Assembly: GCF_014695395.1 (NCBI RefSeq)
Contig: NZ_JACJOF010000016.1
Span: 62,001-126,000, forward strand
Source: Nodosilinea sp. FACHB-131
GTDB lineage: Bacteria > Cyanobacteriota > Cyanobacteriia > Phormidesmidales > Phormidesmidaceae
Direction: 5' to 3'
DNA: 64,000 nucleotides
The notes beneath the pieces are model-generated. The model ran no database searches, was not told the origin of the DNA, and was given only the letters and a program-made list of their open reading frames with translations. Shown here in pieces: positions 20,706-60,856 of the stretch; within the stretch, counting starts at the first letter, position 1; every line of letters begins with the position of its first letter. Made by a program: the position numbers and the translations under genes.

Positions 20706-21407
20706 ATGCGATTCAGTAGTGATGATATTTGGCATGACATTCCAGAAGTTGACATTTCTGATGAAGAACTCATAGATTTTATCGACGACGGCTCTATTTT
20801 CCGAGTTTGTCTTGAAGATTTTATCTACGCTTGGAAAGGATTCCCGTCAATGCATCCATCAAAGAAGCGTGAGCGACTCAGCAGCATTTTTAACGTTGAT
20901 TATTTTGAGGAATATACCGTTCTTACTGATGTTGTCAGTCTTAAAAAACTACTAAATACAGATTTCTACGAGCCATCTCCTGCCAATGGAAGCGGATTCA
21001 TTTATATTTATACTTTTGAAGATAATGTTTTAGCAGGTCTGTATGAACCAGGTTTGCTCTGGTGGCGAACTAAACGTTATGAAGCAAAGTTGAAGATAGG
21101 CCGAACAGAACAGAACGTCCTTCGCAGAATTGATCAGCAACTTGACCGTAAGACGGGGATTTGTGAACCTCCAATTCTGCTTGCAGTCTTTTGGACACAA
21201 TGGGTAGTATCTTGTGAACATGAAATTCACCAAGAACTTGCAGGCAAGAGGTTATCTGACAAGACGGGTAAACCTGCTAAAGGCGGTGTCGAGTGGTTCA
21301 AAGCTACCCCTACCCTAACGTTACCTGTTGTCCTGAAGTGGGTCGAGCATTTTAGTCGTTTATCTCCTCCTGTAGCTGTCGATCCGCTAATTCAATCGGC
21401 GGTCTAA
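20706..21407 (+). CDS. T5orf172/GIY-YIG-like nuclease domain protein
   Basis: A 233-residue protein whose C-terminal two thirds match the T5orf172 branch of GIY-YIG nucleases: GFIYIYTFED (the GIY/YIG-like strand), LKIGRTEQNVLRRI with the conserved Gly-Arg, the CEHEIHQELAGKRL helix with its Glu and Glu, and GVEWFKAT near the end. The first 90 residues are acidic (DISDEELIDFIDDG) and unrecognised. It is markedly more AT-rich than its neighbours and adjoins a decayed phosphatase remnant, which suggests transfer. Possible DNA nuclease or regulator in phage/defence genes; actual role unknown. Confidence 0.75.
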   Translation: MRFSSDDIWHDIPEVDISDEELIDFIDDGSIFRVCLEDFIYAWKGFPSMHPSKKRERLSSIFNVDYFEEYTVLTDVVSLKKLLNTDFYEPSPANGSGFIYIYTFEDNVLAGLYEPGLLWWRTKRYEAKLKIGRTEQNVLRRIDQQLDRKTGICEPPILLAVFWTQWVVSCEHEIHQELAGKRLSDKTGKPAKGGVEWFKATPTLTLPVVLKWVEHFSRLSPPVAVDPLIQSAV

Positions 21408-47882: not shown

Positions 47883-49523
47883 TTAACGCCGCCGCTCAGA
47901 GGTCGTAAGCAGGCTAGCGGTACAGTCTAGTTCTCCAGTGCAGACCGGCTCAGGGAACGAAAAATGCTCGAGCACCTGGGGATGAATTTCGCCAAATTCT
48001 CCCACTGGCTGACCCTGGATCAACACCGTAGCCGCCCGTCCGGGGAGATAGTAGGGGGCATGGCAGACAGCTAACTCATAGCTCAGCCCTAGGGCTTTAA
48101 GCATGGTCTGCATGTAGGCTTTGGCGGTAGTAAACGAGGCGCGGGCATCTAGACTGGCGAAGCTCCAGTGCTGGCTTTCGTCAGGGATGTCTGCCGTCTT
48201 GAACCGCAGCACTTCCCCAGTTTCATAGATGTTGATAGGTTTGGGTGCGTTAATGTTGCGGGCTAGAATATCTAGCAACCCCGCTTGTAGGGTGGTGCGA
48301 GTGGCGCTAAATGTGCGGCTTTTGGCGTTGCCAGCCTGCACATAGGGCGCCCCAAACAGATCGAGAATTTCGGGGTCGGTGAGCACAAAACTCTTCACTT
48401 CCATTAGTCCCATGCGTTGGGCTAGATCGCTCACCTTAAATACGGCTTGGCGTAGGGCATCAGCTTCCCCTAGATGAAATTTGACGGCTAGGGGTTCGGC
48501 CTGGAGGGTGCCAATGCCGATCGCCACCAGTAAATCCCCTGCTAGATCGACCTGGCTAAAGATATCGGTGCGATAGGTAGGCACATGCACCACATCGGTG
48601 CCACTCACCTCTAGGTCCATGCGGGAGAGCACTTGACCCAGGCCGCTCTTAGGAATAGCGGTGCCCATAATTTCGTTGAGATACTTGGCCGAAAACTGCA
48701 CGGGGCGGCGATCTAGGCTTGGGGTGGTGAGAATACCCTGGGGAGTGGCAATCTCCACAGTTTGCACCTCAGCTCCGGTATCTAAAAAGTTGTGGGTCAG
48801 AATATTGGCGGTCTCTAGCACCGTCTGAGCCAGAATGCCGGTGACGTCGATGAACAGATTGCGGGTGTTAGCATCCACTTCTCCTACCCCCGCTGCGTTA
48901 ATGATGGGCGGCATGGAAAGTACAGTACCGCCGGCATCGCGCAGCACCAGGGCATAGTCATTTCCTGGCAGGGTATGGCCATAAGTTTTACCCGCAGGGT
49001 GCTCGCGCAGAATCTGCTGGGCAGTCATGGGTTGGGTGCTGTGTAGGGGCACAAAGGTCAGCTGGTCTAGCGATTCTGCTGCGTAGGTTAAGTCGCCACT
49101 AATTTTGTCGAGGTCATAGACACCGATCGCAATTTTCTTGCGCTGGCGACCAAAGGTTTGGGTCACCTTCTCCTGAAACTGCACCAGCACCTCTAACCCG
49201 CCGCCTTGCAGATCAGCTCCCCGCACAACTAAAGCAGCAATGTGGGGCCGCAGGGGCAATACCTCAGGCTGGACGGTGACCCGGCGACCCGAAGCAAGCA
49301 GCTGCTCGGGGACAGTACGGGGTAGGCCGTTATAGATGTTGATGGCGCGGGTAAACCCTTCTGCCGCTAGCAGATCGGGCCGCTCAGCGGTGACTTCGAC
49401 CTCTAGGGTTTGGTCGCCCAGGGTGGCATCTAGGCCGTAGTCAAAGGCCTGCTGGGCTAGCTGCTGAGGGGTGGTGGTCGTCAGCCGTTGCAGGTAGGTG
49501 AGGGGAAAGGTGACGGTGGGCAT
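47883..49523 (-). CDS. pheT: Phenylalanyl-tRNA synthetase beta subunit of archaeal/eukaryotic type
   Basis: The 546-residue protein matches the archaeal/eukaryotic PheT branch rather than the ~800-residue bacterial one: it starts MPTVTFPLTYLQRL, has AIGVYDLDKISGDLTYAAES (compare eukaryotic GTHDLDTLSGPFTY), VLSMPPIINAAGVG, and DVTGILAQTVLETANIL. B3/B4, B5 and the catalytic-like core are present; the bacterial EMAP-II (tRNA-binding) N-terminal domain and the C-terminal FDX-ACB anticodon domain are absent. The alpha subunit (pheS) is not in the window, so it must be elsewhere or missing. Whether the host also keeps a bacterial PheT cannot be seen. Confidence 0.85.
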   Translation of the reverse strand: MPTVTFPLTYLQRLTTTTPQQLAQQAFDYGLDATLGDQTLEVEVTAERPDLLAAEGFTRAINIYNGLPRTVPEQLLASGRRVTVQPEVLPLRPHIAALVVRGADLQGGGLEVLVQFQEKVTQTFGRQRKKIAIGVYDLDKISGDLTYAAESLDQLTFVPLHSTQPMTAQQILREHPAGKTYGHTLPGNDYALVLRDAGGTVLSMPPIINAAGVGEVDANTRNLFIDVTGILAQTVLETANILTHNFLDTGAEVQTVEIATPQGILTTPSLDRRPVQFSAKYLNEIMGTAIPKSGLGQVLSRMDLEVSGTDVVHVPTYRTDIFSQVDLAGDLLVAIGIGTLQAEPLAVKFHLGEADALRQAVFKVSDLAQRMGLMEVKSFVLTDPEILDLFGAPYVQAGNAKSRTFSATRTTLQAGLLDILARNINAPKPINIYETGEVLRFKTADIPDESQHWSFASLDARASFTTAKAYMQTMLKALGLSYELAVCHAPYYLPGRAATVLIQGQPVGEFGEIHPQVLEHFSFPEPVCTGELDCTASLLTTSERRR

Positions 49524-49621
49524 GGGGGAGATGGAGAGGGTGAGGAGATGGGGCGGGTGGGGGAGATGAGTGAGTTGATCCTCCCATAGGTTATGGGGAG
49601 TTAGGTACAGATGGGCGCAAA

Positions 49622-49670
49622 AACCATCCTGCCCATAGGCTTCTTAAAGAAGCCTATGGGCAGGATGGTT
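49622..49670 (-). terminator. Perfect 49-base palindromic terminator after dps
   Basis: Two 24-base arms (from AACCATCCTGCCCATAGG to its complement) around a single A, followed on the minus strand by TTTTT. It lies 98 bases past the dps stop in the transcription direction. The perfect length is unusual for a terminator, and a plus-strand frame of 42 codons starts inside it (rejected below). Confidence 0.75.
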
Positions 49671-49767
49671 AACAAGTCTAAATTGAACTCGCCGCTAGAA
49701 TTACCAGAGCAAGCTCAAGAATCCACGGCTAAACTACTCGAAGCAGTTAGTGCTGTAATGAAGCAGC

Positions 49768-50301
49768 CTATGCCAGGTTGCTAGTAGCTAGCTCTTGGTC
49801 ACGGGTGCCGCTCGATTCAAATGCTTCGCCATCCAGGAAGGAGCGCAGCATCCAAGCCATTTCTTCATGCGCTTCCATCAGGCCGGTCAGAAAGTCTGAG
49901 GTGCCCTCGTCATGGAACTCTTCGGAAGTCTGGTCAACGAACCCGCGCAGGTTGCGAATGATCTGCTCATGATCGTTGACCAAGCGCTTGACCATTTCTT
50001 GAGCAGAGGGCAGATCGCCAGGGTGCTCTTTCAGAGAAGCATTTCTGAGAAATCCTTCGGCGGTGCCCAGGGGGTAGCCGTTGAGCTGGCGCACCCGCTC
50101 GGCAACGGCATCGATGCTAACGGTGAGGGCTTCGTAATGCTCTTTCCACAGTTCGTGGAGGGTGCGGAATTGAGGGCCAACTACATCCCAGTGGTATTTT
50201 TTGGTTTTGATCAGCAGCAGATAAGCGTCGGCCAGAACTTTATTGAGAATTTCGGTTACACCCTGGCGTTCTTGTTCGGAAAGGCCAATGTTGATGCTCA
50301 T
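49768..50301 (-). CDS. dps: Dps-family ferritin-like DNA-protection protein
   Basis: A 177-residue Dps, a dodecameric ferroxidase that stores iron and shields DNA. The dinuclear site ligands are His37 (KYHWDVVGP), His49 (TLHELW), Asp64 and Glu68 (SIDAVAERV), in the correct order and spacing. The C-terminal tail (EAFESSGTRDQELATSNLA) extends beyond the core. Start ATG at 50301. The strong terminator at 49622-49670 follows. Confidence 0.93.
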   Translation of the reverse strand: MSINIGLSEQERQGVTEILNKVLADAYLLLIKTKKYHWDVVGPQFRTLHELWKEHYEALTVSIDAVAERVRQLNGYPLGTAEGFLRNASLKEHPGDLPSAQEMVKRLVNDHEQIIRNLRGFVDQTSEEFHDEGTSDFLTGLMEAHEEMAWMLRSFLDGEAFESSGTRDQELATSNLA

Positions 50302-50793: not shown

Positions 50794-52281
50794 CTACGCT
50801 TTTTTAGATTTGGTTTGCTGCGATAGCTTTTTAGGGCCAGGCTTGGGCGATCGCGCTGCGTTTGCCGTGGGCAGCTTTAGGCCCGGATGGTGCAGAGCCA
50901 GGCTCTGGTGCAGCCCCTCGACCGTCAGCACTGGGGGATCAGCTTGCTGGGCTATGGCGACGGCAGTCTGGGCCAGGGTAACAATTTCACCGCCGGTTAG
51001 CGGCAGCTGCTGAGCAATCTGGGGCCACCGCAGGGTGCGTTCTTTTTTGACGCCCGTGGGAATGGCCCGCTTCCACAGCAGCTCGCGGGCGGCGGCATCG
51101 GGTCGGGGGAACTCGATCACTCCAGTCATAGCCTGTCGCCAGGAGGGTTTGATGCTTTGCAGGTAGGGGCTGGCCAAGAGCGTCAAACCTGGCTGGCGAC
51201 GGCGCTGAATGCCCCAGGACTGCACCAGAGCCGCCTCAATGGTAGGGTTGCGACCAAACCAGTGGGGCGCATTTTTGAGCAGCAGCACGCAGGGCGGCAG
51301 GTGGGCCAGGTCTTCGAGCTCGGGAATGTTGCCCTCTTCGTCGGGGGCGATCGCCGCCAGGTCAACCATCACCAGCAGCAGCTCTAGCTCGGCGGCTAGC
51401 ACCTTGGCAGCGAGGGTTTTGCCGGTGCCGTTGGGGCCCGCCAGCAGCACCATAGTGCCGTCGGTAGCGCGGGTGGCGGCGGCCACGGTTCTGAGCTGGG
51501 CCAGCTGAGGGTCGGGCAGCACTAGGCTATTCCAACTTTCGGCCGGAACTTCTGACGCTTCCTCCGCTTCTAGGGCAGGAGCCACAGCCCAGGCATCGAG
51601 GGTGGCGGGGTCGGGTTCTTCGGAGAGCAGGTAGGTGGTGAGATCTTCGGTCAGGCGCAGGTGGCGGCTGAGCAGGGTGGTGTCTTCGGCGTTGAGCCAC
51701 TCCACCAAACCCAGGTTTGACAGGCGACTGTTGGGGGCAATCAGGGGGCGCGATCGCCGCCATTCCTGGTCATTTCTACACAGCAGCCGCAGGCACAGGT
51801 CGACTGTGGGCAAGTCCCAGTCAGACTCGTCGTGCTGGTAGTGTAGGTAGCTGTAGAGCCGCCCAAACCGCTGGTTGACCTCGGGGGCCAAGGCCAGCAG
51901 CAGCACGTTTTTTTCAAACATAGTGAGCTGGAGGCGATCGCGCAGCTGGGGCAGGGCCAGCACCACCCCCTGGCGCTGGCTGGCCAAAATGCGGGCCTCG
52001 AGCTGCTGGGCGTAGCTACCGCTGGGGCGCTGGGTCTTGGGCGGGCGGGCGTTGTCGTAGTTGGGCTGGCCGTTGAGGCTAATAATGCCCTTCCACCAGT
52101 GGCGAGTGACCCGGTCTTCGCCGGAGAGGGCAAAGTCGTCCAGCTCTTGCAGCTCGCGCTTTTGGCGCGATACGGCCACCATCAGCAGGCGATCGAGCCA
52201 GGCCAGTTCGGTTTTTAAGTAAGCCCAGTTGTCGGTAAACGGAGTCATTCTCTCGAAATTGGACCCCTCAGGGTTGGACAT
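50794..52281 (-). CDS. AAA-family ATPase with degenerate Walker B
   Basis: A protein of about 495 residues, starting at the ATG at 52281 or 52248 (MTPFTDNWAYLKTE). It resembles the AAA proteins of cyanobacteria and contractile-injection-system clusters: the N-terminal helical domain, a middle of about 280 residues, then Walker A GPNGTGKTLAAKVLAAEL near residue 290. Where Walker B should have hhhhDE the sequence reads CVLLLKNAPHWFG, and the sensor-1 region (LTLLASPYL) and following arginines (PSWRQAMTGV) are altered too, so it can probably bind but not hydrolyse ATP. The start overlaps the VOC gene's stop by 14 bases. Its function is unknown. Confidence 0.75.
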   Translation of the reverse strand: MSNPEGSNFERMTPFTDNWAYLKTELAWLDRLLMVAVSRQKRELQELDDFALSGEDRVTRHWWKGIISLNGQPNYDNARPPKTQRPSGSYAQQLEARILASQRQGVVLALPQLRDRLQLTMFEKNVLLLALAPEVNQRFGRLYSYLHYQHDESDWDLPTVDLCLRLLCRNDQEWRRSRPLIAPNSRLSNLGLVEWLNAEDTTLLSRHLRLTEDLTTYLLSEEPDPATLDAWAVAPALEAEEASEVPAESWNSLVLPDPQLAQLRTVAAATRATDGTMVLLAGPNGTGKTLAAKVLAAELELLLVMVDLAAIAPDEEGNIPELEDLAHLPPCVLLLKNAPHWFGRNPTIEAALVQSWGIQRRRQPGLTLLASPYLQSIKPSWRQAMTGVIEFPRPDAAARELLWKRAIPTGVKKERTLRWPQIAQQLPLTGGEIVTLAQTAVAIAQQADPPVLTVEGLHQSLALHHPGLKLPTANAARSPKPGPKKLSQQTKSKKA

Positions 52282-52699
52282 AGCCCAGCACTCGAATAAA
52301 TTCCAAAGGCAGCCCGTCGGCATCGGCGAGAAAGGCCACCTCATAGACGCGATCGCCGATGATTTGCTGCTGGGGTTCCAGCAGCACCTTGGGCATCGCC
52401 GCCGCCGATCGCTCAAACCGCTGGCGCAGCTCCTCTAGCCACAAGGGCAGGCTAGAGGTCGCCTCAGTGAGATCAAAGGATAGATGATAATAGCCAGTGT
52501 AGTGCTCATCACTAAAGGCATCGGCGGCGGGGCGCGGCTCCGGCACCTGGATCAGCTCAATGCGGCCCCCCAAGCCCTCCATCCAGCAGGCCAGGGTAAT
52601 GCCAGCGGTAAAGCGTTCGTGGACGGTAAACCCCAGGGCTTCGTAGAAGGCGATCGCGCGGTGAATATCCTGGGTGCGAATTGACGCGTGGTGGAGCAT
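52268..52699 (-). CDS. VOC (glyoxalase/bleomycin-resistance) superfamily protein
   Basis: A 143-residue VOC protein with the metal-binding fold: LHHASIRTQDIHRAIAFYEALGF at the N-terminus (His as first ligand, split at motif boundaries), IELIQVPEP near residue 50, YYHLSFDL near 73, and DADGLPLEFIRVLG near 133. It is related to lactoylglutathione lyase but the set of ligands does not establish the reaction. It precedes and overlaps the AAA gene, suggesting cotranscription. Confidence 0.82.
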   Translation of the reverse strand: MLHHASIRTQDIHRAIAFYEALGFTVHERFTAGITLACWMEGLGGRIELIQVPEPRPAADAFSDEHYTGYYHLSFDLTEATSSLPLWLEELRQRFERSAAAMPKVLLEPQQQIIGDRVYEVAFLADADGLPLEFIRVLGYVQP

Positions 52700-58004: not shown

Positions 58005-60461
58005 CTAGGTAGGCACGCGCACGGGGAGCGATCGCACCAGCCGCAGCCACTGACCGCTGTCGGTGAGGTAGCCCAATTCGGCCACGTAGTCGCGATCGGC
58101 GGTCCAGATCGATACGTGGTGTTCTTGGTCACTGTCCGCCAAAATGTATTCCTGGGTGGCGTGGGGGGGCTGGCTGTCAAGTTCTACGTTGGTGACATCG
58201 TGAATGCGCAGGGCCATAACTCGACCGCCTTCTTGCCGTAGGGCCTCTTTGTGGGCTGAGGCAGCTTCCCAGTAGGCGTAGGCGGAGGTGGAACTGCGGG
58301 GCACCAGAACAATTTTGCTCTCGGCCCCCATGTCGGTGCGTCGACCAACGCCAACGGCGGTCTCTCGCCCTGGGGTGGTGACATCAGCAGTGCGGCTCCC
58401 CAAGCTGGCACCTAGCCCGGCGGCAGTGACTCCACCGGCTAGGCCGGGGAGGGCTGTCTCTGCGATCGCACTCTCTCTGTGTTCGGTCTGTAGGTCGTCG
58501 CTCAGACCAGCGGCCCCGCCGAGGGGACTATCGAGGGTGGTGCCAGGGAAGGCTGCGGCTTCAGTCGACGGGCAGGCGGGTACGCGCACTGGTTCGGACT
58601 TAGCCAGAGCTTGCCACTGGTAGTTGCTGTCTACATAGCCCACCTCGACCAGGTAGTCGCGATCGTCGATAGCAATGGGCAACTGCAGATTGCCCTGGGC
58701 CACCAGCTCGGCATTAAACTCTTGCAGGCTGTTGAGGCGGTTGCCGTGGCCGGGCAGCTCGGTGACATCGTACAGCCGAGCCTTGAGGCTGCGAGAGCCA
58801 GCCTTGAGATCGTCCACGGTTGAGGCGGGTAGTTCCCAGTAGGCGTCGGCCGTTCTGCAATCGCGCGGGGTGAGAATGGCCCGGGCTGGGGCAGCGGTTT
58901 CTGGCGGGCGGGCGATCGCAGCTGCGCCTACCCCTAGAGCACCCAAACCAGCCGCCGCTGTCACGCCTGCCCCTGCAGCATTGGGGGTGACGCTGCAGGG
59001 GCAGGCCGGTACGCGCACGTGAGCCGATCGAGCCAAGGCATGCCAGGCGTTATCGGGGCCTAGGTAACCCAGTTCGACTAGATAGTCGCGGTCGTCGACG
59101 GCCACAGGCAGGTGGCGATCGCCCACAGCGACGGTGTCGCAGTCAAACGGGTAGGTGTTGTGGGGTGACTGTCGGTCGACATCGGCAATATCGGTGACAT
59201 CGTGGAGCTTGAGCGCCAGGGAGCAATTCTGCTGGCGAAGCGCCTCGACTTCGCCCTCGGGTAGTTCCCAGTAGGCGTAGGCGTCGCGGCAGGTGCGCGG
59301 GGTGAGAATGATACGGCGATCGGCGGCGGCCGCTAGAGGAGCCGCTAAAGGTGCTGCCACCGGCGCACTATCCTTGAGCAGCCACCAGAGTAGGCCACCT
59401 AGGACGGGCAGCGCCAGCAGCCAGGGCCACCAGGGCAGACCCCGTGCCGGAGCTGAGGCGGGAGGAACGGGGTCGGTTTCTTCGAGGGTTGTTTCTGGGG
59501 TCGCTTCGGCAGTGGGGTCGGTTTCTACCTCAGGGGTACCCGCACCCGCGATCGCCGCATCTTGAGCTCCTTCAATCAGCGCTTCGCTGGCAGGGCTGAT
59601 GGCAAACCCGAGGAAGGCGAGGGCCGCTGGGCTGGCCGTTTCGGGATTGTAAACGTAGGAAAGAGGCTGGGAGAAGGGGTAGCGCTCGTCGTCTGGCAGA
59701 GTATCGTGCATGGGCACAATTTTCACCGCCGGATTGTTCAGCGCCTGTTCGGCAACGACATAGCTAATACTGTTCTCGTCGAGATTCTCGGCGATGGCCG
59801 CAGCGCTGGCCTCTAACAACACGGTTGCCCCAGGGGCCGACTCAAAAACCCCGCTCTCAAATACCGGATAGTTGCGAAAGGCCTGGCGGGTATCGCTGTT
59901 GCCAGGTTGGTCGACCAGCACGATGGGGGCATCCTGGCCGCCGACCTCAGACCAGTTGGTAATTTCGCCGCGAAAGATTTGGGCAAATTGCTCAATAGTT
60001 AGACTGCCGGCAAAGGGGTTGCTAGGGCTGACTAGAACGGCGATTTTTGGGCGCGAAACCGGCACTTCTCGCAGCCCGGCGCTGACTTCTTGCTCGGTGA
60101 GGCTGCGACCGATGGCGGCGAGGTCAACGTCGCCATCAATTAGGGCTTGTAGGGCGTTGTTGGCGCTGTCATATTCAACGACTACATCGGCATCGCTGTA
60201 CTCACTGGAGAAGCGCGATCGCAGCGTCTCATTCACCAGACGCATGGCCTCTGAACTCTCAATGGTTAACTTGCTGTTCCGCTCTAACGAGGTGGGAATT
60301 TCAACGCCCTCCAGGGGGTCAGCGGTCTGGGCCCAAAGCCCACCATCTCGATCGAGTGCGACGGTAGCGACAATCAGTAGGGGTGCTGCGGTCATCCAAA
60401 GCAGCGATCGCCCCTCCGCTGTAATAGCGCTTTGAGCATTAGCACTGTGGCGTTTGAACAT
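58005..60461 (-). CDS. PstS-like binding domain fused to three DUF4912 domains
   Basis: A protein of about 818 residues from the ATG at 60461 (a TTG 24 bases upstream is possible). After an N-terminal hydrophobic segment comes a PstS/ABC phosphate-binding-like domain (about residues 55-305, with LTIESSEAMRLVNETL, NTVDLAAIGRSLTEQEV-like phosphate loop, TNWSEVGGQDAP, QPGNSDTRQAF), then a Pro/Glu/Thr linker, a transmembrane helix (PWWPWLLALPVLGGLLWWLL) near 345, and three DUF4912 domains. Each of the latter has the ILTPR..AYAYWEL start and ends in VRVP. So the binding domain would lie in the periplasm and the DUF4912 repeats in the cytoplasm. No ABC permease is adjacent. Confidence 0.88.
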   Translation of the reverse strand: MFKRHSANAQSAITAEGRSLLWMTAAPLLIVATVALDRDGGLWAQTADPLEGVEIPTSLERNSKLTIESSEAMRLVNETLRSRFSSEYSDADVVVEYDSANNALQALIDGDVDLAAIGRSLTEQEVSAGLREVPVSRPKIAVLVSPSNPFAGSLTIEQFAQIFRGEITNWSEVGGQDAPIVLVDQPGNSDTRQAFRNYPVFESGVFESAPGATVLLEASAAAIAENLDENSISYVVAEQALNNPAVKIVPMHDTLPDDERYPFSQPLSYVYNPETASPAALAFLGFAISPASEALIEGAQDAAIAGAGTPEVETDPTAEATPETTLEETDPVPPASAPARGLPWWPWLLALPVLGGLLWWLLKDSAPVAAPLAAPLAAAADRRIILTPRTCRDAYAYWELPEGEVEALRQQNCSLALKLHDVTDIADVDRQSPHNTYPFDCDTVAVGDRHLPVAVDDRDYLVELGYLGPDNAWHALARSAHVRVPACPCSVTPNAAGAGVTAAAGLGALGVGAAAIARPPETAAPARAILTPRDCRTADAYWELPASTVDDLKAGSRSLKARLYDVTELPGHGNRLNSLQEFNAELVAQGNLQLPIAIDDRDYLVEVGYVDSNYQWQALAKSEPVRVPACPSTEAAAFPGTTLDSPLGGAAGLSDDLQTEHRESAIAETALPGLAGGVTAAGLGASLGSRTADVTTPGRETAVGVGRRTDMGAESKIVLVPRSSTSAYAYWEAASAHKEALRQEGGRVMALRIHDVTNVELDSQPPHATQEYILADSDQEHHVSIWTADRDYVAELGYLTDSGQWLRLVRSLPVRVPT

Positions 60462-60856
60462 AAGCAGGCACCAGAATATTCCCAATTTAAACAGAGAGGA
60501 TTGCTAAACCTCTAGAACATGAATTCTAGGTTGTTAAAGACACTACAGCCCAACTGACTGGGCAAAATTTAAACCCGAGTTAAGCTGCTTCAAAAAGCTT
60601 CTATAAAGCTAGAGAATTGCTTCCTTGATGGTCAAAACTTTGTGACCGGCTAGCCTCCTTTGTCTGTCATCACCCCAGGGTTAATTAAAAGACAGGCGAT
60701 CTCAAATAGCTTATAAGTTTGCCCGCTAAACTCAGTCATTTTTGACCTCAGGAGCTTAGATCACAAACATAAGAAATTCATAAATGTTCCTGGGCAGGGC
60801 AACCGCGCTAGAGTTGACTGCTTTTACAGATAGATTTCTCACGCTAGCAACACTGG
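60462..60856. other. Intergenic region upstream of the PstS/DUF4912 gene
   Basis: About 395 bases with no gene. A hairpin CTAGAA-CATGAA-TTCTAG lies near 60512-60529. AT-rich stretches near 60680-60790 may hold a promoter. I looked for Pho boxes (CTTAACCT repeats) because the product has a PstS-like domain, but saw none convincing. Confidence 0.5.

Follow-up and report, generated by a model that had tools for sequence, protein, structure and literature searches.

Archaeal-type phenylalanyl-tRNA synthetase (PheRS) has been described inside bacteria: according to the available part of PMC3191353, the archaeal enzyme replaced the bacterial one in the spirochaetes Borrelia, Treponema and Spirochaeta. 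Duplicated aaRSs are common, and cyanobacteria with two synthetases for one amino acid are also on record; the excerpt of PMC4787780 at hand describes the Anabaena ThrRS pair T1/T2, whose second enzyme works under zinc deficiency, and dates the origin of the cyanobacterial ThrRS copies early, ahead of the diversification of the phylum. The residues N410, Y412 and F438 of the human Phe pocket correspond to F258, F260 and V286 of the bacterial enzyme, and N217 has been named as an editing residue (PMC3275996). As far as the accessible text of PMC9976931 goes, position 20 of tRNA-Phe is U20 in bacteria, archaea have G20 together with C13-G22, and the archaeal and eukaryotic PheRSs use G20 as an identity element. 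Among open-access titles and abstract openings, we found no report of an archaeal-type PheRS in cyanobacteria or of a bacterium with both types, and the word 'phenylalanyl' is absent from the available portion of a review of duplicated aaRSs (PMC9437257).

Here we analysed a 64,000-nucleotide stretch of contig NZ_JACJOF010000016.1 from the cyanobacterium Nodosilinea sp. FACHB-131 (the window), which carries a pheT gene of the archaeal/eukaryotic type. The family is already known; the co-residence of both PheRS types is the new part. Judging from sequence, we estimate at roughly 80% the probability that this ORF encodes the beta subunit of a complete, active second PheRS of archaeal type, kept beside the native bacterial enzyme.

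The beta subunit and its fold

The pheT gene occupies positions 47883..49523 of the minus strand, starts with ATG and encodes 546 aa followed by a stop. The coordinates, the length, the MPTVTFPL start and the stretches YDLDKISGDLTYAAES and VLSMPPIIN, reported in an earlier note on this DNA, were all verified in the window; that note gave no strand, and the plus-strand reading of 47883-49523 contains many stops. The product matched the NCBIfam model TIGR00471 (pheT_arch) with 337.6 bits against a cut-off of 282.65 (E 1.2e-100), the alignment covering model positions 1-548 of 551. Its match to TIGR00472 (pheT_bact) reached 121.3 bits, far below the cut-off of 402.65, and covered model positions 404-692 only. 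The closest PDB sequences were human and Pyrococcus horikoshii PheRS beta.

Pfam located the B5 domain at 48516..48701 (minus; PF03484, E 2.1e-11) and the catalytic-like module (CLM, B6/B7), the intersubunit core, at 47925..48464 (minus; PF17759, E 9.7e-34), both above cut-off. The B3/4 editing domain at 48804..49187 (minus) was assigned from a PF03483 match of 23.8 bits, below the curated cut-off of 29.3, together with a residue check, and the match to the B1 domain was likewise below cut-off. Congruently with the earlier note, which held that the EMAP-II-like N-terminal and the C-terminal anticodon domains are missing, neither PF01588 (tRNA_bind) nor PF03147 (FDX-ACB) matched at E <= 0.001. 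Both were detected by Pfam in the bacterial PheT native to this genome, a full-length protein of 812 aa on another contig (C5) that scores 766.3 bits with TIGR00472 and displays the tRNA_bind, B3/4, B5, CLM and FDX-ACB domains. The two PheT proteins share 30% identity over residues 307-536.

We also compared an AlphaFold2 model of the protein, built with 29 cyanobacterial sequences, against known structures using the VIA structure search and Foldseek. The model has a mean pLDDT of 74.2, with low confidence in part of the CLM and most of residues 343-442 below 50. Its closest fold was P. horikoshii PheRS-beta (2cxi), with Z 39.1 and an rmsd of 2.0 Å over 334 residues; human PheRS beta gave Z 36.1 with an rmsd of 16.1 over 475 residues, and the best bacterial PheT chain among the matches listed gave Z 17.0 with an rmsd of 18.7 over 419. 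LRRC47, CtdA, SepRS and PylRS, which stand below the PheRS chains, were rejected as identifications, for they have domains in common with the model but not its identity. The ORF is not a bacterial-class PheT: it falls short of the ~800 aa size and of the TIGR00472 cut-off, and it has neither tRNA_bind nor FDX-ACB. The full-length TIGR00471 match and the closest fold bear out the assignment to the archaeal/eukaryotic type made in the earlier note, and neither of the two observations that it had set against this assignment, a bacterial fold or a full-length alignment with bacterial PheT, was obtained.

A matching alpha subunit beside the native enzyme

The FACHB-131 genome (6.16 Mb in 45 contigs, completeness 100, contamination 2.62) encodes two PheS-type proteins, one bacterial and one archaeal-type, the latter on contig C20. 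The absence of an adjacent alpha subunit, pointed out in the earlier note, therefore holds within the window but not for the rest of the genome. Since the archaeal-type PheS, the bacterial PheS and the bacterial PheT are all present, as a genome search proposed in that note revealed, the genome holds two complete PheRSs. The bacterial pheS and pheT have not been lost, as they would be in a replacement of the spirochaete kind.

Counted from its conserved start MLDLLQ, the archaeal-type PheS is 481 aa long. It matched NF003210 with 411.4 bits (cut-off 350) over model positions 4-486, a span that includes the N-terminal extension with winged-helix domains ahead of the catalytic core, and its closest PDB match was human FARSA. 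The predicted PheS model is confident in its N-terminal part only. In the VIA structure search human FARSA came first, with Z 9.7 but an rmsd of 19.6 over 235 residues, a match that is weak alone. MarR-type winged-helix proteins (Z 8.0 and less) were set aside as having domains in common rather than the same identity.

Congruently with a working synthetase, the class II residues (motif 2 R and E, FHQxE and motif 3 R) were found in 32 of 32 archaeal-type PheS proteins, and the protein does not look like an aaRS-like paralogue with lost catalysis. The Phe pocket of the FACHB-131 protein consists of N408, Y410 and F436, and Asn/Tyr/Phe are present in all 32; by eye, the bacterial PheS of the same genome has F/F. 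Regarding editing, the equivalents of N217 and T236 are kept in 33/33 archaeal-type PheT proteins and those of S211 and D234 in 32/33, and the L202 equivalent is also kept in FACHB-131 PheT, as judged by eye in alignments. Apart from N217, these are what we take to be the P. horikoshii editing positions, and the comparison is with the P. horikoshii letters only. The editing set of the native bacterial PheT (T, N, H, E) is intact in 21/21. The most diverged PheT, that of G041 (L061 7695-9434), has C in place of S and E in place of D at the editing site, and its proofreading may differ.

ARAGORN found one tRNA-Phe(GAA) among 41 tRNAs in the genome, with 150 of 212 candidates scored. Within these 150 candidates we found no dedicated second tRNA-Phe, a scan that a poor match might escape. 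As only one tRNA-Phe was found, both PheRSs would use the same molecule. Numbered by hand, it has U20, C13-G22 and A73; as it lacks G20, charging by the archaeal-type enzyme could be weak.

Distribution, gene linkage and origin

In a set of 57 genomes of relatives, the archaeal-type PheT is present in 30: all 26 of the genus (Nodosilinea and allies), each at E <= 1e-40, three others of the family (G029, G030 and G032) and one of another family (G041). The archaeal-type PheS accompanies it in 29 of the 30 and occurs in none of the 27 PheT-negative genomes; it was not seen in G003, which is 86% complete, and is partial in G024. The native enzyme is found alongside, with bacterial pheS in 30/30 of these genomes and bacterial pheT in 28/30, the exceptions being the fragmented assemblies G005 and G029. 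These bacterial-pair counts refer to the set of 57 and not to G437, G448, G465, G547, G570 or G585, apart from what was seen of PheS in G437 and G448. Listed contamination is 2 to 6 in all 26 genus genomes (G000-G025), compared with 0 or 1 in 20 of the 23 genomes of other families in the set; marker genes present twice, for instance through a second PheRS, might contribute to this figure.

Wider samples outlined a patchy distribution. Across the order, the archaeal-type PheT was detected at E <= 1e-40 in 31 of 63 genomes (26 of the genus and five others), which represent 5 of 14 genera; in 29 of these genomes the match exceeds the cut-off. Both PheT and alpha are present in G437 and G448. The order-level sample around G041 contained G041 alone. 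The class sample comprised 388 genomes from 159 genera, and 34 of these genomes, from 9 genera, have the archaeal-type PheS; this added G465 (family f3) and G547, G570 and G585 (family f24). The single positive among 386 genomes of the phylum sample was FACHB-131 itself. In some analyses the genes of G005, G016, G021, G024, G029 and G448 are partial, and G003 was omitted where PheS was needed.

Five other cyanobacterial loci (SIO4C1, Prado106 [G570], CSU_1_4 [G585], G547 and G465) have pheS immediately upstream of pheT in the same orientation, with a gap of ~10 bases in CSU_1_4 and G547. In G012, G015 and G032 a single contig carries both genes at a large distance from each other; in FACHB-131 (C20 for pheS, C8 for pheT) and G041 they lie on separate contigs. 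Because the genes adjoin in five loci, an operon was probably acquired and split later, and the simplest history would be one in which the splitting occurred more than once. In Leptolyngbya sp. SIO4C1 (G030), a Trm1-type tRNA methyltransferase ORF (L058 4026-5132) stands directly upstream of pheS-pheT on the same strand. We rejected Trm1 as a specific partner, given that 39 of the 57 genomes have it, including 12 of the 27 that lack archaeal-type PheT.

The trees of the archaeal-type proteins resemble that of the bacterial PheT. In 21 genomes the cophenetic correlation with the bacterial PheT tree was 0.953 for archaeal-type PheT (9 of 18 splits in common) and 0.983 for archaeal-type PheS (8 of 18), against at most 2 common splits in 500 label shuffles, although these are quick LG+G4 trees in which half of the splits differ. 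It appears that the two PheRSs have coexisted from a time preceding the divergence of at least two cyanobacterial families, that of G041 and that of FACHB-131. A quick concatenated tree of 34 rows, some of them partial, grouped f24 at 99 and Nodosilinea at 99. G465 (f3), whose pheS-pheT pair (L226) is adjoining, fell inside the f1 clade at 98, a placement that hints at one transfer between cyanobacteria but is unsure because the rows marked as long branches include G465, G030 and G041.

The first option of the earlier note, a transferred synthetase, is most probably right. The N-terminal part of the archaeal-type PheT is 33.8% identical to P. horikoshii and 31.3% to human, the only two references used. 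All seven cyanobacterial proteins tried were closer to P. horikoshii than to human by alignment score; by percent identity, the G041 protein has 26.8 with human and 24.7 with P. horikoshii. A contig scan for related loci returned 25, titled cyanobacterial, and because its patterns were drawn from cyanobacterial sequences this result is silent on archaea and spirochaetes. With tblastn, eight phage records matched PheT, none at 80% query coverage, and one scan of viral contigs yielded no relative. Among 27 plasmid records, the single one at 80% coverage was the 2.1-Mb Fusobacterium NZ_CP084075.1 (L151), with 21.6% identity. This weak full-length match is labelled as a plasmid, but by its size NZ_CP084075.1 is probably a chromosome.

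Why two enzymes may be kept, and comparison with known systems

The reading that we favor, a complete second PheRS of archaeal type, would have the following course. A cyanobacterial ancestor would have gained an archaeal-type pheS-pheT pair, most likely as a single operon; in the Nodosilinea lineage its two genes would subsequently have become separated by long distances, with the native bacterial PheRS retained. The alpha subunit (481 aa) would supply the class II catalytic site and the N-terminal winged-helix domains for tRNA binding, and the beta subunit would supply the structural core and a B3/4 site hydrolysing Tyr-tRNA(Phe). Together they would form an (alpha beta)2 enzyme that may charge the same tRNA-Phe as the bacterial one. 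The pair could have been kept because it differs from the native enzyme in its Phe pocket, its editing and the way it reads the anticodon; a different pocket and editing site may be useful where the bacterial enzyme is inadequate, that is, under stress or in the presence of a Phe analogue or an inhibitor. Discrimination against meta-tyrosine (m-Tyr), inhibitor escape and redundancy are candidate advantages between which the evidence does not separate.

We also entertain, at odds of clearly less than even, a broader picture in which several cyanobacterial lineages run a two-PheRS economy. The enzymes, which stem from different domains of life and would differ in Phe pocket, proofreading site and anticodon reader, would compete for, or alternate on, one tRNA-Phe. 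The archaeal-type PheRS would come into play when a particular condition calls for it, for instance a natural PheRS inhibitor or a Phe analogue, making it an ancient and stable inter-domain bypass of an essential step.

As for the particular advantage, the second enzyme might be a conditional isozyme whose pocket binds m-Tyr less and which keeps Phe-tRNA accurate when photosynthetic oxidative stress raises m-Tyr, a proposal that we consider rather unlikely. Human cytosolic PheRS has a roughly tenfold lower affinity for m-Tyr than bacterial or mitochondrial PheRS (PMC3275996), and the human pocket residues are all kept in the archaeal-type PheS; the same work points the opposite way in that bacterial PheRS hydrolyses m-Tyr-tRNA and human PheRS cannot. 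The enzyme is, moreover, absent from most sampled cyanobacteria. In favor of the proposal, the upstream neighbor of pheT is dps, a ferritin-like gene at 49768..50301 (minus; PF00210), which is directly beside pheT in 14 of 30 other loci and 4-5 kb away in two more; in the remaining 14 it is absent from the stretch examined, some loci ending close to pheT. Between the two genes, however, lies a terminator-like hairpin with a T run and a 20-pair stem (49624..49668, minus), and visual inspection of upstream alignments shows a hairpin like it in several close relatives. Because of this hairpin, which is probably the end of dps, so that pheT would have its own start site, we give the dps neighborhood little weight. 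A sigma-70 scan of 49480-49800 detected no promoter-like site, and no motif common to the pheS and pheT upstream regions was seen by eye in alignments of 20 genomes each. Inspection of the pheS surroundings by eye, with no family library, recognized sensor-kinase-like ORFs and no oxidative-stress gene.

Three other ORFs of the window drew our attention. One at 58005-60485 (minus) combines a phosphate-binding-protein-like domain (PF12849) with three DUF4912 stretches, a combination that looks unusual; another, at 50794-52416 (minus), joins an AAA ATPase to a winged-helix variant domain (PF22977) and resembles the anti-phage ATPase IteA weakly, with 30 bits against 510, below cut-off. The third, at 20706-21407 (plus), encodes a T5orf172/MUG113 domain protein.

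By analogy with other duplicated aaRSs, which can differ in antibiotic susceptibility according to the available part of PMC4787780, the archaeal-type PheRS may withstand a natural inhibitor or Phe analogue to which the bacterial one is sensitive. The two PheS proteins do differ in the pocket (N/Y/F against bacterial F/F), but no biosynthetic cluster or resistance gene was recognized among the ORFs around pheT or pheS, inspected by eye and in part with a family library, and such a bypass seems doubtful to us.

The pair could instead be redundant and nearly neutral, acquired long ago and serving as a backup of the native enzyme with no special role, in keeping with its patchy presence in 9 of 159 genera of the class sample and, within the order, in only 5 of 14 genera as against 31 of 63 genomes. 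Its retention in 26 of 26 genus genomes argues against this, as does selection: the archaeal-type pheS and pheT are under strong purifying selection, with median NG86 dN/dS values of 0.116 for PheS (335 of 496 pairs) and 0.118 for PheT (260 of 528 pairs), both for dS between 0.05 and 1.5. Resolved by region in 16 close genomes, the ratio was 0.086-0.11 in the PheT domains, and PheS had 0.154 at its N-terminus and 0.036 in its catalytic module. The rates are also near that of the bacterial PheT, with mean pairwise distances of 0.69 and 0.52 for the archaeal-type proteins and 0.49 for bacterial PheT; plain redundancy has the probabilities against it.

The other option of the earlier note, an orphan beta subunit repurposed away from aminoacylation, fits the lack of an adjoining alpha within the window but is highly improbable and largely refuted by co-occurrence, as the archaeal-type alpha is present in 29 of 30 PheT-positive genomes and adjoins pheT in five other loci, and the catalytic and editing residues are intact.

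A second PheRS, then, poses the testable question of why a cell would hold two versions of an essential enzyme from different domains of life, and opens those of tRNA identity (U20 versus G20), m-Tyr discrimination and inhibitor escape. Relatives carrying the pair include Nodosilinea nodulosa PCC 7104 (G009) and Leptolyngbya sp. PCC 6406 (G032). A naturally occurring archaeal-type PheRS, if it works on a bacterial tRNA, could serve genetic-code engineering.

Compared with the archaeal/eukaryotic PheRSs (2cxi; human FARSA/FARSB, 3l4g), the putative second enzyme of FACHB-131 has the same domain plan of both subunits, the same pocket and editing residues and the same N-terminal fold of beta, with ~34% identity between its PheT and the P. 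horikoshii PheRS-beta reference fragment; it differs in that its bacterial host has retained the bacterial PheRS as well and in that the tRNA-Phe to be used has U20. The native PheRS of the same genome is expected to perform an identical reaction on an identical tRNA-Phe, but its PheT differs in its 812 aa, its tRNA_bind and FDX-ACB domains and its T/N/H/E editing set. Like the Anabaena ThrRS pair T1/T2, as the available part of its report presents it, we have a cyanobacterium with two enzymes per amino acid, although the ThrRS duplication is not attributed to an archaeal-type enzyme. The spirochaete PheRS, compared by its partial description only, likewise brings both archaeal-type subunits into a bacterium; there it is a replacement, whereas Nodosilinea holds both enzymes.
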